A stretch of DNA of 62,790 bases from Chitinophaga pinensis (GTDB lineage Bacteria > Bacteroidota > Bacteroidia > NS11-12g > UBA955), in assembly GCA_945888525.1 (NCBI GenBank), contig CAMDAF010000012.1, positions 1-62,790 on the forward strand. Reading direction: 5' to 3'. How positions within the stretch are numbered: position 1 is the stretch's first letter; each line of letters begins with the position of its first letter. Below are positions 31,374 through 39,274 of this stretch, one piece after another. The translations under genes and the position numbers were made by a program. Below the pieces are notes generated by a model. The model made no database searches. It worked only from the letters and a program-made list of their open reading frames with translations, and was not told the origin of the DNA.

Positions 31374-31776
31374 TAGCTGAGCCCAATTCTTCAAGCATTT
31401 CTAAAAACCTTTGTTTTTGCAGTGGCTTGAAAATATAGTCTTTTACCAAAGGGTTATTTTTGGCGCGTTCAATATCAATTTGACTAATTGAAGAGGAGAA
31501 CATATACAGGTTATTCTTCTTAGACATTTTAGGCATCAACAATGCATATTCTTCTAAAAAGTGCCACCCGTCCATAATTGGCATACTAATGTCAAGCAAA
31601 ATAATGTCGGGCAATTCTTCTGCAACATCACAAAACTCTTTTAAAAATGCAAGTGCATCGCTACCCTCTTTAAAATCTTTGATTTTACTAGAAACGTTGC
31701 TGGCATCTATTGTTTTTTTTGCCAAAAAAGATATGATACTGTCATCATCTATGATAAAAATTTTTAACTGCTTCAT
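31366..31776 (-). CDS. Response regulator, receiver domain only
   Basis: 136 residues, a single CheY-like domain. Acidic pocket FIIDDDSIISFLAKK, phospho-acceptor Asp in ILLDISMPIMDGWHF, Ser/Thr in FSSSISQ, and the conserved Lys in VKDYIFKPLQ. No output domain, so it probably works by protein contact or relays phosphate. It starts 4 bases inside the kinase fragment upstream, so they were one operon. The gene itself is complete although the kinase is not. Confidence 0.85.
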   Translation of the reverse strand: MKQLKIFIIDDDSIISFLAKKTIDASNVSSKIKDFKEGSDALAFLKEFCDVAEELPDIILLDISMPIMDGWHFLEEYALLMPKMSKKNNLYMFSSSISQIDIERAKNNPLVKDYIFKPLQKQRFLEMLEELGSAIN

Positions 31777-32375
31777 ATGTACTGATCTATAAATGTTATT
31801 TTAAATGTTGTTCCTTCGTTAACAATACTCTCTATTGCGATTTCCCCACCCATGGCTTCAACTTGTGTTTTTGTCATAAACAAACCATAACCTTTCGCAT
31901 TGGGATGGCGGTGAAAAACTTTTCCGATTTTGAAAATTTGATCCTTATACCTTTCAATGTCAATGCCTAAACCATTGTCGGTGACACTAAGCTCAATTTC
32001 ATTGTTGTCCAAATGGGTTGTTTTAATTTGTATAATTGGGTCGCGTTCAAGGGATCGGTATTTAATGGCATTGCTCATTAAATTTTGTAGAACACTGTTC
32101 ATATACTTTGAGGGAAAAGAAATTCTAGGCGCAGACTCCAAATCAAACTCAAACTTTACATTATTTTGCAATACATCAAAATCCATTGGATTCAATACCC
32201 TCTGAATGCATTCATGCATATCGTTCTTATCTACTGGTATTGTTGTATCCTGCTGAACTTGAAGTGAATTTACCAATTCATCAAAAGTTTCGTTCAAACT
32301 TTTGAGCACTGGGTCTAATTTTGAAACCAATAATTTCTGTTCTTCATTGTCCTCTGCAAAAACATTGACAGCCAA
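31773..32375 (-). pseudogene. Histidine kinase remnant: ATPase half only
   Basis: About 200 residues. The HATPase_c domain is intact: N-box VLQNLMSNAIKYRS, G1 VTDNGLGID, and G2 GYGLFMTKTQVEAMGG. The frame starts (nominal TTG at 32375) inside the dimerisation helix: EDNEEQKLLVSKLDPVLKSL is the second helix of such kinases, and the preceding H-box with the phosphorylated histidine and any sensor domain are gone. At the break, the opposite strand carries the equally headless DsbA/FrnE fragment. It may still be expressed, but cannot autophosphorylate by itself. Confidence 0.7.
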
Positions 32376-32615
32376 GAAGCGCTTATTGAAATAGCTTCAA
32401 ATATTGGATTAAATTTAGATGAGGCTAGAAAAGCATTGCATGAAAAGCAATATTCCGAGCAAATTGAATTTGACGCCTATGAAGCCCAACAAATTGGAGT
32501 GCGTGGGGTTCCGTTTTTTGTATTCAACCGCAAATACGGCATTTCTGGGGCGCAACCTTTGGAAGTGTTTACAAGAACTCTAAACCAAGCCTACGAGGAA
32601 GAAAACAAAGTCTGA
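32358..32615 (+). pseudogene. 3' remnant of a DsbA/FrnE-family oxidoreductase
   Basis: The plus-strand frame reads KNIDSQEALIEIASNIGLNL at the break, then YSEQIEFDAYEAQQIGVRGV and PFFVFNRKYGISGAQPLEVF, ending TGA 32613-32615. GVRGVPFFV is the cis-proline segment and SGAQP the family tail of the FrnE/YwbO-type DsbA group. The first about 130 residues, with the CxxC active site, are missing. Homology begins where the kinase homology on the other strand ends. Confidence 0.7.
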
Positions 32616-32762
32616 TATTTTTTTATTGTGCATAAAATTTGTCTTCTATTATCACGAGTTCGCACAAGTGTTTGAATTGGTGCGAATGCATTGCATTCAA
32701 AAGGCAAATGGATTGAATACGATGAAACAGATAGTGAAAAATCTAAAATAAAAGATTTAACA
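32616..32762. other. Non-coding or degraded stretch before the DtxR-family gene
   Basis: No intact gene. A short plus-strand frame (IGANALHSKGKWIEYDETDS onward, stop at 32780-32782) looks protein-like and may be another 3' scrap, but I cannot assign it. No promoter or terminator hairpin is evident. Confidence 0.4.
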
Positions 32763-33470
32763 TTAAAAATTCTTACAGTTTAACTTACACAACTTACCTT
32801 TTATGCAGTCATGGCAAATAACATAAATATTGTCGGAAAATTTGGCGCTTACTGATGCCTGTTTGCCATTGGTTTCAATTAAAAGCATACTGTCGTAGGC
32901 ATTTCTTGAAAGCACTTTGATTTCGCTTCCTATGGCAACACCTAATTCAATTACATATTTTAAAAAAGTAGGTGAATTGTCTATTACAGCAACCATTTTA
33001 CATTTTTTACCCGCATCAATTTCAGAAAGCGTTATGCGGTATTGGTATTTAATTTCCCCATTGGCATTTGGAATCACATCGCCATGTGGATCGAATTCAG
33101 GATAATCTAAAAACTTATCCAAACTGTCAATTAACTTTTGACTTTGAATGTGCTCCAATTGTTCGGCAACTTGATGAACCTCATCCCAAGTAAAACCAAG
33201 TTTTTGATACAAAAAAGTTTCCCATAGACGGTGTTTTCGCAATACCTCCACCCCCGCTTTGGTGCCCAATTTGGTTAAACTTATCTTACCATATTTTTGA
33301 TAATCGATTAGTTTTTTTTCTTTGAGCTTTTTAAGCATATCATTTACAGTTGCTGGCTTTAAACCCAAATGCAAAGCCAATTCGTTTGTTCCAGCCTCGC
33401 TTTTCAACCTGTTTTCATGGATCAATTGAAACAAAGCTTTGAGGTAATTTTCTTCTGTAAATGACAACAT
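32763..33470 (-). CDS. DtxR/MntR-family metal-dependent repressor
   Basis: 235 residues. N-terminal winged helix (LSFTEENYLKALFQLI; LGLKPATVNDMLKKLKEKKL as recognition helix), dimerisation domain with metal ligands (His/Glu in QVAEQLEHIQSQ, and FDPHGDVIP), then a C-terminal SH3/FeoA-like domain (about 150-220). Family members bind DNA when loaded with Fe2+ or Mn2+ and repress uptake genes. The tail is unusual: CHDCIKGKLCKLNC, a cysteine cluster. It diverges from a TonB receptor with a 6-4-6 palindrome between, the likely operator. Its ATG is five bases after the -7 box. Confidence 0.92.
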   Translation of the reverse strand: MLSFTEENYLKALFQLIHENRLKSEAGTNELALHLGLKPATVNDMLKKLKEKKLIDYQKYGKISLTKLGTKAGVEVLRKHRLWETFLYQKLGFTWDEVHQVAEQLEHIQSQKLIDSLDKFLDYPEFDPHGDVIPNANGEIKYQYRITLSEIDAGKKCKMVAVIDNSPTFLKYVIELGVAIGSEIKVLSRNAYDSMLLIETNGKQASVSAKFSDNIYVICHDCIKGKLCKLNCKNF

Positions 33471-33475
33471 CTTTG

Positions 33476-33483
33476 CAAATATA
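33476..33483 (-). promoter_or_regulatory. -7 promoter element of the DtxR-family gene
   Basis: Minus strand TATATTTG, five bases before ATG 33470. A leaderless mRNA is likely. Confidence 0.6.
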
Positions 33484-33501
33484 TGAAAATAATGAAACTG
33501 T

Positions 33502-33534
33502 TTTTGTTAGACTCATCTAACTTTATTAGTTTTG
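33502..33534 (+). promoter_or_regulatory. Complete promoter of the TonB receptor gene
   Basis: TTTTG (33502-33506) and TAGTTTTG (33527-33534), 20 bases apart. Transcription would start near 33541, after the upstream ATGs at 33483 and 33492 and before ATG 33561, which settles the start. Confidence 0.75.
33506..33521. promoter_or_regulatory. Probable DtxR-family operator
   Basis: GTTAGACTCATCTAAC, a perfect 6-4-6 inverted repeat containing TTAG-N6-CTAA, which resembles half-sites of DtxR/IdeR boxes. It fills the spacer between the -33 and -7 elements of the TonB receptor promoter and lies just upstream of the regulator's own promoter, so binding would block the first and could autoregulate the second. 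Confidence 0.65.
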
Positions 33535-33560
33535 CATACACTAAAACCAAATTAAGACCA

Positions 33561-35852
33561 ATGAAACTCTGCCTATTCTGTCTTTATATAACATCATTAT
33601 TATGCCACAATAGCTTGTGGGGACAAAGCAACTCTCTGAGCCTTCGTTTGTCATTTAGACATATTGGTGTTGAGGGGATTAAAGTTATTCTGGATAAAAA
33701 ACATTTCAGATTCACCGATTCAATGGGAGTATGCAAGTTTGAACCAATCGATACAGGAGCGCATGAATTGGAGTTTAGTTCGGAAAAATATAGAGACAGC
33801 ACAATTAGGCTTAGAATTGAAAAAGACAAAGGATTAAACATTTTTGCAGTTTTAACTCCAATATCAGAAGGGCTTAAAGAATATGTGGTAACAGGAACTT
33901 TAAAACAAATAAAACGGTCTGAAAGTCCTGTAAATATTGAGGTTTACACACCAAGCTTTTTTAAGAAAAATCCAAGTTCAGGCTTATTTGAAGCCATGCA
34001 AAACATCAATGGCATTCGACCACAGGTAAATTGCAATGTGTGCAACACAGGCGATATTCACATCAACGGATTGGAAGGCCCATACACTATGGTGCTCATT
34101 GATGGTATGCCATTGGTAAGCAGTTTGTCAACGGTGTATGGCTTATCTGGCATTCCAAGTTCTATGGTAGAACGCATTGAAATCATAAAAGGTCCAGCAT
34201 CAACTTTATACGGCAGTGAGGCAATTGGAGGTGTAATAAATGTGATAAGCAAACGGCCAATCAATTCGGCTAAATTAACATTTGAAAACATGAGTACATC
34301 ATGGGGTGAGAGCAATACCGACATTGGCCATAAACTAAAAATAAAAAAGAAAATTGACATTTTAACTGGGATAAACCATTATTGGTTTGACCAAAAAACA
34401 GACAAAAACAATGATCAATTTACAGATGTTACTCAGCAGCACCGCTTGTCCATATTTCAAAAAATAAATATTCAGCGCAAAAGCACTTTGCCTTTTCAAA
34501 TTGCAGGGCGTTATTTTTATGAAAACCGTTGGGGAGGAGATATACGATGGAGCAGACCATTTAGATTAGGAGACAGTATTTATGCAGAAAGCATATTTAC
34601 ATCACGTGTTGAACTTTTTGGAAATTACCAATTGCCAATAAAAGAAAAAATAAACCTTTCAGCCAGTATTAACCGACACCATCAAAACAGTGCATACGGA
34701 ATAGTTTCGTTTATTGCACTTCAAAAAATTGCATTTTTACAAGGAACATGGGACAAAGACATTAAAAAGCATTGCTTGCTTTTAGGTGCTGCCTACAGGT
34801 ATACTTATTATGATGACAATACCGTTGGAACGCAAGAAAACAGCAATCTAATTTCAATCAATAAACCTCAAAAAATCGCTTTGCCAGGTATATTTATTCA
34901 GGACTTAATCAAATTCAATACAAAAAATAATTTGCTTTTGGGTTTTAGAATTGACTTGAACCAAGTCCATGGTAAAATTTACACCCCACGCCTTGCATAT
35001 AAACACATATTTAATTTAAACAATGTATTGCGTATCAATTCAGGAACGGGATTCAGAGTGGTCAATTTATTTACCGAGGACCATGCCGCTTTAACAGGGG
35101 CAAGATCTGTTGTGATAAAGGAATCCTTAAATCCGGAACGCTCCGTTAACTTAAACATCAACTACCTTAAAAAGCATCGATTTGGTTCAAATAATTTAAT
35201 TGGGTTGGATATGACTGTGTTTTACACGCATTTTAGCAACCGAATCCAAGCAGACTACCTCAGCAATTCAAACTTTATATACTACGACAACATTAATGGC
35301 TACTCGGTCAGTTCTGGCTTTAGCGCCAATATAGACTTGAATTTGAGCTGTGGTGTAAATGCTCTATTAGGTTTAAGTTACTTGGATATTTACACCATAG
35401 ATAAAGGGATCCGAAAAACACCCATATTAACTGAAAAGTTTACAGGAACCTGGACAATCTCCTATCCTATTAAAAAGATAAAAACATCGGTAGATTATAC
35501 AGGAAACATATACAGCCCCATGCAACTGCCAACGCTTGGCGATTTAGATCCACGAAACAAATATTCACCATGGTGGAGCATACAAAATATTCAATTGACG
35601 TATACAGGCATCAAAAAAATAAAATTATTTGGCGGGGTAAAAAACCTTTTAAACTTTACACCCATGCGCAAAAATTCATTCATTATTGCAAGGGCGCACG
35701 ATCCTTTTGATAAAAAAGTGGAATACGGTGTAGATGGTCAAATAAAGAAAACGCTCGAAAACCCATATGCGCTGAGTTTTGACCCCAATTATGTATACGC
35801 CCCGAACCAAGGCATACGATTTTTTATAGGGTTTACCTGCACTATTTTATAA
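33561..35852 (+). CDS. TonB-dependent receptor, probable metal or metallophore uptake
   Basis: 763 residues from ATG 33561, which begins the signal peptide (KLCLFCLYITSLLCHNSLWG). Then a short carboxypeptidase-regulatory-like domain (about 25-105), plug (about 110-230) with EYVVTGTLKQI, VNCNVCNTGDIHINGLEGPY, MVERIEIIKGPASTLYGSEA and GGVINVISKRP, and a 22-strand-type barrel to the end (FFIGFTCTIL). The plug has a Cys-x-x-Cys (CNVC). Control by the divergent DtxR-type repressor suggests iron, manganese or a metal complex as cargo. A terminator follows and pckA converges. Confidence 0.9.
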   Translation: MKLCLFCLYITSLLCHNSLWGQSNSLSLRLSFRHIGVEGIKVILDKKHFRFTDSMGVCKFEPIDTGAHELEFSSEKYRDSTIRLRIEKDKGLNIFAVLTPISEGLKEYVVTGTLKQIKRSESPVNIEVYTPSFFKKNPSSGLFEAMQNINGIRPQVNCNVCNTGDIHINGLEGPYTMVLIDGMPLVSSLSTVYGLSGIPSSMVERIEIIKGPASTLYGSEAIGGVINVISKRPINSAKLTFENMSTSWGESNTDIGHKLKIKKKIDILTGINHYWFDQKTDKNNDQFTDVTQQHRLSIFQKINIQRKSTLPFQIAGRYFYENRWGGDIRWSRPFRLGDSIYAESIFTSRVELFGNYQLPIKEKINLSASINRHHQNSAYGIVSFIALQKIAFLQGTWDKDIKKHCLLLGAAYRYTYYDDNTVGTQENSNLISINKPQKIALPGIFIQDLIKFNTKNNLLLGFRIDLNQVHGKIYTPRLAYKHIFNLNNVLRINSGTGFRVVNLFTEDHAALTGARSVVIKESLNPERSVNLNINYLKKHRFGSNNLIGLDMTVFYTHFSNRIQADYLSNSNFIYYDNINGYSVSSGFSANIDLNLSCGVNALLGLSYLDIYTIDKGIRKTPILTEKFTGTWTISYPIKKIKTSVDYTGNIYSPMQLPTLGDLDPRNKYSPWWSIQNIQLTYTGIKKIKLFGGVKNLLNFTPMRKNSFIIARAHDPFDKKVEYGVDGQIKKTLENPYALSFDPNYVYAPNQGIRFFIGFTCTIL

Positions 35853-37628: not shown

Positions 37629-38591
37629 ATGCAAGTTTACAGATTATCAATTGCCTTCTTTGGCCTCATTACACTGCTAACAATCAGCGCATTCGCCATA
37701 CCCGAATGGATTTCTCCATTTCAACCCGATGGCATTAAAGTTGATTTGCTCTGGAATTACAGATTGCCAAAAACCATTACGGCTCTTTTTGCAGGAGCAT
37801 CTTTATCTGTCTCAGGTTTTATCTTACAGCAGCTTTACAAAAACAATCTTGCCGGCCCATACATACTTGGCGTTAGCTCTGGCGCTTCATTGGCCGTTGG
37901 TATGCTCATAATAGGTAGCCACTACTTCCCGTTTTTAAACCATGGCTTTGGCATTTCACTTGCTGGTTTTATAGGTGCCACAGCCATTCTTTTGCTGGTC
38001 ATGTTGGTCTCCTCCCGCTTTGGTTCAGGTGCCATCATTTTATTGTTTGGTGTTATAATTGGACAAATCACTAGTGCACTTCAAGGCCTTTTAAACTACA
38101 TGGCAGTTCCTGGCGATTTAAAAAATTTCACCCTTTGGAGCATGGGCTCATTTAGCCAAGTGATTGAATTTGATTTATTGTTTTTTGGCGTATCAAGTCT
38201 GTTGGGAATTATTTGGGCTTGGCTCATCATGCCTCAGCTCTCTGCAATGCTTTTAGGCGATGAGGTTGCTCATTCCTTGGGGGTTAACACCAAAAGCATT
38301 TCATTACAATTGCTCATTTGCACAGGCATATTGAGCGGCATCGCAACAGCGTATTGTGGTCCAATTGCATTTATTGGCATGGCCATTCCAAATGTTTCTC
38401 GCATGTTGTTTAAAACAGTCAATTTTAGATTTATGCTCTTAGTAAACGGGGTTTTAGGCGCTGCGATGGCACTCATTAGCGACATTATTTCCTCAAGTGA
38501 AATATTTGGTTTTAATATCCCAGTTAATGTTTGTACGGCGCTAATTGGTGGCCCATTCATTATTTACATTTTATTAAAAAGAAAACAGTAA
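37629..38591 (+). CDS. FecCD-family ABC transporter permease
   Basis: 320 residues, about 9-10 transmembrane helices. Family landmarks: WNYRLPKTITALFAGASLSV, NNLAGPYILGVSSGASLAVG, LGVNTKSI, and GPIAFIGMAIPNVSRMLF. This family moves ferric siderophores, haem or cobalamin across the inner membrane. The stop TAA shares its last A with the ATG of the ATPase gene, so the two are translationally coupled. No binding protein is encoded next to them; a BtuF-like protein lies at 57.7 kb. Confidence 0.93.
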   Translation: MQVYRLSIAFFGLITLLTISAFAIPEWISPFQPDGIKVDLLWNYRLPKTITALFAGASLSVSGFILQQLYKNNLAGPYILGVSSGASLAVGMLIIGSHYFPFLNHGFGISLAGFIGATAILLLVMLVSSRFGSGAIILLFGVIIGQITSALQGLLNYMAVPGDLKNFTLWSMGSFSQVIEFDLLFFGVSSLLGIIWAWLIMPQLSAMLLGDEVAHSLGVNTKSISLQLLICTGILSGIATAYCGPIAFIGMAIPNVSRMLFKTVNFRFMLLVNGVLGAAMALISDIISSSEIFGFNIPVNVCTALIGGPFIIYILLKRKQ

Positions 38592-39274
38592 TGGATCCCA
38601 TATTAAAATTAGTAAATCTTAGTATTGGACAAGAATCTGTCATTGTCGATTCTATCCATGCACAAGCTTTTAAAAACGATTTAATTGTATTGACGGGTGA
38701 AAATGGAAGTGGAAAATCGACCTTACTTAAAACTATTGCTGGTATTATAAAGTCAATTTCAGGCGAGGTTTTTATTTCAGGTGACTCGATTTCATTGCTG
38801 CCGCAAAAAAAGCTTGCTCAAAAACTCGCGTTTGCAAGCACCCAAAGAATCCGAGAAGACTATATTAAAATTGAAGACGTTGTTCGTTTTGGTCAATTTC
38901 CATACGCGCAACTGGACGATACCGAAGAGTCAAGCCGCGAAATTGAGCAAGCTATCGCTCTTATGGGGATAGATAAAATCCGTCACAAATACTTGAACCA
39001 AGTGAGCGATGGTGAATGGCAAAAAGCAAATATTGCGCGTGTATTGGCACAAAAAACAGACCTGATTTTAATGGATGAACCGACTGCTTTTTTAGACTAC
39101 CCCTCTAGAATGCGCTTATATAGAGACTTAAAGGAAATTTGTTTGACTCAAAACAAAACAATTATTGTGTCTACACACGATATTGATAGTGTTAAAGGAT
39201 ATGCAAGCTTTTATTGGCATATAGACCAAGGCAAATTGAATATTTTACAAGATTCCCCCACTTGGGTTATTTGA
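38591..39274 (+). CDS. ABC transporter ATPase (FepC/BtuD-like)
   Basis: 227 residues from ATG 38591, overlapping the permease stop by one base. Walker A VLTGENGSGKSTLLKTIAG, Q-loop region FASTQRI, a slightly altered signature QVSDGEWQKANIARVLAQ (SDGEW in place of LSGGQ), Walker B LILMDEPTAFLDYPSR, and switch His in IIVSTHDIDS. The altered signature is common in FecE/FhuC-like subunits. With the FecCD permease it forms an importer for an iron chelate or corrinoid. Confidence 0.92.
   Translation: MDPILKLVNLSIGQESVIVDSIHAQAFKNDLIVLTGENGSGKSTLLKTIAGIIKSISGEVFISGDSISLLPQKKLAQKLAFASTQRIREDYIKIEDVVRFGQFPYAQLDDTEESSREIEQAIALMGIDKIRHKYLNQVSDGEWQKANIARVLAQKTDLILMDEPTAFLDYPSRMRLYRDLKEICLTQNKTIIVSTHDIDSVKGYASFYWHIDQGKLNILQDSPTWVI

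Follow-up and report, generated by a model that had tools for sequence, protein, structure and literature searches.

The stretch of DNA analyzed here (the window; 62,790 nucleotides, contig CAMDAF010000012.1 of the Chitinophaga pinensis assembly GCA_945888525.1) carries a divergent gene pair, identified as such in an earlier sequence-only reading. A DtxR/MntR-family regulator of 235 aa with a FeoA-type C-terminal domain is encoded on the minus strand (32763-33470), and a TonB-dependent receptor of 763 aa on the plus strand (33561-35852). Between them, at 33506-33521, lies GTTAGACTCATCTAAC, a 16-bp hyphenated inverted repeat (GTTAGA-CTCA-TCTAAC) with the core TTAG-N6-CTAA, assigned to neither strand. 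This dyad had been described as a perfect palindromic operator. Its position and the perfect match of its 6-bp arms (GTTAGA/TCTAAC) were confirmed, but the 4-bp centre CTCA is not self-complementary, and a perfect palindrome was thus rejected.

Promoter boxes were assigned using the -33/-7 consensus of Bacteroidota. On the receptor side, a -33 box TTTG (33503-33506, plus strand) and a -7 box TAGTTTTG (of the form TAnnTTTG; 33527-33534, plus strand, five bases after the operator) enclose a spacer of 20 bases. As had been noted, the dyad fills most of this spacer (15 bases), its first G being shared with the -33 box. It also lies upstream of the regulator's own -7 box, TATATTTG (33476-33483, minus strand), for which no good -33 box was seen by eye. 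As this -7 box ends five bases before the ATG at 33470, a near-leaderless regulator mRNA is predicted, whose 5' end may coincide with the start codon or adjoin it. For the receptor, a mechanical ORF list gave a start at 33483; we preferred 33561, because promoter and operator lie in between and a start resembling a signal peptide follows (judged by eye). A riboswitch was considered and rejected, as a scan of the window against Rfam gave no match at gathering thresholds.

Conservation of the dyad was evaluated in three sets of loci. A regulator search matched 57 of 97 genomes, of which 37 (the genome of the window included) gave near full-length matches and 20 partial matches that were left out; the resulting 36 relatives belong to two families. 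A draw across the phylum contributed the 29 best loci out of 203 matching genomes. Finally, 80 named loci, all with Bacteroidota titles, were the best of at least 586 found by receptor alignment. Because this last set was selected by receptor similarity, a shared plug motif is expected in it, while the regulator, the dyad and transporter neighbours are not. A DtxR homologue is present in 69 of the named loci and directly divergent in 50. The 150 bp in front of the orthologous regulator contain TTAG-N6-CTAA in 25 of the 36 relatives, in 50 of the 69 named loci, and in 18 of the 29 loci from the draw, which exceeds the frequency in dinucleotide shuffles of the regulator upstream regions (about 0.5%) more than 100-fold. 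It also precedes the receptor orthologue in 71 of 78 named loci (shuffle rate 0.7%; the other two of the 80 were too near a contig end). Since the dyad occurs upstream of orthologues far above the shuffles, its conservation argues that it is a control site and not a chance repeat. In near relatives it centres on GTTAGACTAATCTAAC, and many flavobacteria have the form TTTAG-N6-CTAAA.

The promoter elements around the dyad were less uniform. TAnnTTTG occurs within 40 bp of the regulator start in 28 of the 36 relatives, four bases away in 13 of these; in the named loci the distance is mostly longer than here. Among the 25 relatives bearing the dyad, 14 have TTTG or TTTT at the edge where the -33 box lies here and 17 have TAnnTTTG 4-8 bases past it on the divergent side, versus only 13 of 51 named loci with TAnnTTTG 3-8 bases past it on the receptor side. 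The promoter part of the arrangement is therefore clear mainly near this genome.

Opposite the regulator, the 36 relatives have a TonB receptor in 21 cases (one of them, L101, split over two ORFs and counted as found), a di-haem oxidoreductase in six (L076, L089, L090, L093, L103, and L104), a contig end in one (L091), and other or unclear neighbours in eight. Of the 28 loci of the first three kinds, 25 have an intact dyad and the remaining three (L081, L087, and L098) a degraded one. None of the eight loci with other neighbours has it, and in five of these genomes the dyad stands elsewhere, before NRAMP (G022 and G024), ZIP (G026 and G042) or a TroA/ZnuA-type gene (G064); the other three of these eight genomes are G017, G030, and G075. 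The dyad thus accompanies uptake genes and not simply the regulator. Seven of the 11 named receptor loci lacking a DtxR homologue in the fetched stretch likewise keep the dyad (L271, L273, L275, L282, L289, L303, and L316); the other four do not have it, one of them being cut by a contig end. As to the di-haem gene, it replaces the receptor even once within the genus of the window (L076). Rieske and porin-like genes stand behind it in the loci read further (L076, L089, L090, and L093); by Pfam, L076 encodes DHOR and Rieske proteins and a third gene without a match.

The sequence-only reading had suggested that further copies of the motif might precede FeoAB, NRAMP or siderophore genes. In the genome of the window, none of these gene types was found with a further site in front of it. 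In the relatives, within 250 bp upstream, the dyad was detected at 3 of 26 NRAMP genes and 1 of 30 ZIP genes of close relatives, and at none of 30 FeoB genes (30 loci were returned per family; four of the NRAMP loci gave no ORF match). A listing of near matches comprised about 95 matches in 50 of the 97 genomes, of which 24 places beyond the regulators were fetched. Here the dyad was found (i) about 25 bp before a ZIP gene in three genomes of genus g11 (L113-L115); (ii) before a gene for a TroA/ZnuA-type binding protein in G064 (L116) and G085 (L117); (iii) about 45 bp before NRAMP in G022 (L120); and (iv) before a receptor (L121) on another contig of one of the three g11 genomes, with the regulator on a different contig. 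L122 resembles L121 but is cut by a contig end. The other 16 places, L112 included, are intragenic or have neighbouring genes with no known role in metal handling. Downstream of the TroA/ZnuA-type ABC genes of L116 (G064:C18) and L117 (G085:C34), DtxR-like stretches were seen inside frames of 467 and 442 aa, which are possibly permease-regulator fusions.

The same transporter families recur in the named loci. NRAMP is present in 20 of the 80, with the dyad within 250 bp upstream in 15; two of the other five were read (L286 and L305), and in both NRAMP follows the regulator in one operon. ZIP is present in 29, in 26 of which it lies no more than 50 bp behind the regulator match. In 31 of the 80, a thioredoxin-fold gene is encoded on the receptor strand no more than 600 bp from the receptor end (one of them checked by Pfam).

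The regulator belongs to the DtxR/MntR family, with the winged-helix domain PF01325, the metal-binding and dimerization domain PF02742, and the FeoA-type domain PF04023 all above Pfam cut-offs. Among proteins of known structure, the closest to it by sequence are 5zr4, ScaR, and SloR. Metal ligands were placed by eye from alignments with solved relatives, with reference numbering as quoted in the available part of PMC4805248. His80, Glu84, His99, Glu106, and His107 are present in all 126 aligned regulators, and Glu103, placed at the position of DtxR Cys102 and Bacillus subtilis (Bs) MntR Glu99, is Glu in 125 of them; the equivalents of MntR Glu99, Glu102, and His103 are thus Glu103, Glu106, and His107. 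The ligands Met10 and Cys102 of DtxR/IdeR are replaced by Asn8 and Glu103. Residue 8 is Asn in 110 of the 126 regulators and Asp in 16. By this alignment the ligand set is closer to that of MntR than to that of DtxR, with one departure, and the protein is predicted to work like MntR as a DtxR-family member that is not filed as an MntR equivalog. The likeness of the dyad core to DtxR/IdeR boxes, to which the sequence-only reading had pointed, therefore appears superficial.

The receptor contains the plug domain PF07715 and the beta-barrel domain PF00593, both above cut-offs. Its plug motif CNVCNTGDIHINGLEGPYT (Cys158 and Cys161) is the sole CxxC, here CNVC, at this place among the 16 plug-domain receptors of the genome, and the receptor is also the sole one of the 16 bearing the dyad (for one other, the upstream sequence extended to just 192 bp). 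An alignment of 12 orthologues shows no variation at either cysteine or in a D-x-N-x-D-x-F-T-D loop, and very little in an NTGDIHING stretch. A plug CxxC occurs in 19 of the 21 receptors opposite regulators (all except L082 and L083), either as CN[VI]C or CSVC before GDIHING/GDIQING or as CQ[TN]C before TQ[LV]R. The motif was seen in 79 of the 80 named loci.

A similar arrangement is described for Stenotrophomonas maltophilia, where, according to the accessible part of PMC13217887 (2026), MntR represses a receptor with a CQNC plug through a box between -10 and -35, receptor expression is raised without mntR, and the receptor has a thioredoxin-fold partner (pTFP locus); the precise function of that receptor system is said there to remain to be determined. 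The comparison was made by published description. Both loci combine a DtxR-family regulator, an inverted-repeat box in the receptor promoter (here the dyad in the -33/-7 spacer) and a TonB receptor with CxxC at the corresponding place of the plug. NRAMP MntH is under the same regulator in S. maltophilia and is linked to it in several relatives here, and a thioredoxin-fold gene follows the receptor closely in the 31 homologous loci mentioned above. The two systems differ in the plug motif (CNVC here versus CQNC), in the operator (a 16-bp dyad versus a 25-bp box), and in that the receptor of the window has no adjoining thioredoxin-fold gene (no thioredoxin-fold match was found in the window, and one weak, unlinked match in the genome at C19) and its genome no NRAMP. 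One relative, L084, links the S. maltophilia and Bacteroidota modules at the motif level, as a literal CQNC receptor, about 25% identical to that of the window, stands opposite its regulator with a perfect consensus dyad between them. By this analogy the module looks like a Bacteroidota counterpart of the MntR/CQNC system; the main text of PMC13217887 has no word beginning with 'bacteroid'.

Within Bacteroidota, PgMntR (PG1044) of Porphyromonas gingivalis is likewise a DtxR-family regulator with a FeoA domain, and, in the available part of PMC4805248, is reported to bind manganese and the promoter of its own operon. In contrast to the regulator of the window it has Asp19 and Cys108 (here Asn8 and Glu103), twin FeoA domains (here one) and an operon encoding the transporter FB2. 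The text of PMC4805248 contains neither 'operator' nor 'palindrom' nor 'TonB'. MnoT of Burkholderia thailandensis, named in PMC13217887, is also a TonB-dependent outer-membrane manganese transporter; it differs, by the description given in the part available, in being accompanied by a secreted manganese-binding protein. The iron repressors DtxR and IdeR share the family, the domain order and TTAG/CTAA-like half sites, and are distinguished by half-site spacing and ligand set. Literature searches retrieved no paper with any of four forms of the dyad and none on MntR, Flavobacterium, and TonB together; many subscription papers were out of reach, so that an earlier description is possible.

We read the dyad as an operator through which an MntR-like member of the DtxR family represses the receptor and itself, forming a manganese uptake switch, and put the probability of this reading at roughly 0.72. 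What was observed directly is the dyad itself, with its position within the promoters, its conservation, and its repeated occurrence ahead of metal-uptake genes in relatives. The earlier proposal of a metal-dependent DtxR switch acting on receptor and regulator gains support from this conservation, with binding, repression and manganese as co-repressor being predicted from sequence; the cargo, previously left unnamed, is now probably manganese, because the genes preceded by the dyad in relatives include NRAMP (MntH), ZIP, and TroA/ZnuA-type genes but no FeoB gene among those checked. With sufficient cytoplasmic Mn(II), the metal-loaded dimer would bind the dyad in the receptor promoter, just upstream of its own promoter, and both promoters would be shut or dimmed. 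When manganese is scarce, the repressor would release the dyad and the CxxC-plug receptor would be made, carrying Mn(II) or a manganese complex across the outer membrane. The inner-membrane step is here probably performed by a ZIP transporter encoded elsewhere, as neither NRAMP nor a PF01297 (TroA/ZnuA-type binding) protein was found in this genome. FeoB is encoded at C35 and ZIP proteins at C14 and C22; the C14 ZIP, which shares 62-71% identity with seven ZIPs that in other genomes are associated with the regulator or the dyad, would be the likeliest partner.

Several observations weigh against this reading. The genome lacks detectable NRAMP and PF01297 genes, and its C14 ZIP gene has no dyad; neither have 23 of the 26 NRAMP and 29 of the 30 ZIP genes checked in close relatives. 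Orthologues of the regulator are patchy, with a match in 8 of 17 genomes of the genus. Asn8 stands where BsMntR has Asp8 and DtxR Met10, and no NCBIfam MntR equivalog cut-off was reached (153/350, 60/138, and 52/153 bits). Coordination of Mn(II) by a pair of cysteines would be unusual. The di-haem oxidoreductase that replaces the receptor in six relatives has, to our knowledge, no role in manganese metabolism.

The genome-wide count of the looser motif also offers no support. GTTAGACTCATCTAAC itself is the sole place within two mismatches in the 2.42-Mb genome (G000; 98% complete), and TTAGA-N4-TCTAA occurs twice, the second time inside an ORF; both results speak for more than chance. For GTTAGN6CTAAC with up to one mismatch, 23 places were counted versus 122 for the reversed control, and the control outnumbers the motif in many relatives as well. 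Three other places that were viewed (C3:57382, C2:120123, and C32:24992) lie in an ORF or next to genes that have no established metal function (the remaining one-mismatch places were not viewed singly), and a regulon across this genome was not found. The sequence-only reading had named background frequency in unrelated places as grounds for abandoning the operator: the number of sites is indeed at background, their positions are not. The position of the motif is informative and its genome-wide count is not.

An iron switch, in which the same operator serves an IdeR/DtxR-like Fe(II) repressor acting on a receptor for ferric siderophores or Fe(II), is the alternative that fares best, though we consider it unlikely. 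It would agree with the DtxR family and FeoA-type domain of the regulator, with Asn in place of Asp at position 8, and with the presence, in some relatives, of haem and Rieske genes across from the regulator. NRAMP MntH, moreover, transports iron too (PMC10434265, as far as available). The S. maltophilia receptor, in the accessible part of PMC13217887, is strongly induced when manganese and iron are both low, so that iron may take part; manganese still lowers its expression somewhat without mntR, indicating another control in that organism. Against iron stand Glu103 at the position of DtxR Cys102, the recurrence of NRAMP, ZIP, and TroA/ZnuA-type genes as targets or operon partners, and the absence of the dyad before all 30 FeoB genes. 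This last point has to be read with care. FB2 of P. gingivalis is presumably a FeoB. As it is called a manganese transporter in the part of PMC4805248 available, the lack of the dyad at FeoB genes is no clean test for or against iron and weakens the case for manganese to that extent. Manganese is the best-supported cargo, and iron may still share that role.

A switch for zinc or for divalent metals in general, with the receptor and ZIP importing Zn(II), appears improbable. ZIP is named as a zinc family, a Riemerella ZIP protein takes up zinc (PMC11960050, as far as available), and PF01297 is named for ZnuA; the L082 and L083 receptors without CxxC also seem to resemble zinc receptors. The dyad-bearing NRAMP genes and the MntR-type ligand set speak against zinc, and zinc-sensing members of the DtxR family are rare. 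Even less probable is autoregulation alone, with the dyad serving the regulator and the receptor as a bystander. The low frequency of a receptor-side -7 box in the named loci would fit such a role; the position of the dyad inside the receptor -33/-7 spacer, its retention before receptors without a nearby DtxR homologue (the seven loci above, and L121), and its absence from all eight regulators without a receptor or di-haem operon opposite do not. A chance dyad without function has a negligible probability, as the missing genome-wide enrichment that would suit it is set against a frequency more than 100 times that of shuffles in orthologous regions.

TonB-dependent receptors are usually assigned iron, B12 or glycan cargo by default. 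If the manganese switch is real, the conserved operator ties one receptor family, found by record titles in flavobacteria, pedobacters, chitinophagas, and cytophagas, to NRAMP, ZIP, and TroA-type importers and so yields a testable manganese assignment; the motif could be used to map manganese regulons in a phylum with few described in the literature searched. A wider proposal, which we regard as speculative and rather doubtful, is that a TonB-driven manganese importer is widely shared among Bacteroidota, in which the CxxC of the plug would function as a redox or metal gate, with a thioredoxin-fold partner encoded behind the importer in many lineages. In that case two layers of control would act on manganese uptake, one through the MntR-like operator and one through the redox state of the plug.

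Two further features were noted around the gene pair. Beyond pckA, a FecCD-type permease and an ABC ATPase are encoded at 37629-39274 (plus strand), with no binding-protein gene recognized beside them; the best NCBIfam match of the permease is BtuC, below the cut-off. In L076, L077, and L078 the regulator has these same genes in its vicinity. Inclusion of the permease and ATPase genes in the unit is not supported, given their position behind pckA and the failure to find a second site. On the other side of the regulator, about the last third of a DsbA/FrnE-like gene (PF01323) is kept at 32361-32616 (plus strand), corresponding to residues 131-208 of the 210 encoded by its L077 counterpart. It adjoins a histidine kinase gene (31773-32375, minus strand) of which just the ATPase domain was recognized, and the region near 32360-32380 may represent a deletion scar or an assembly join.

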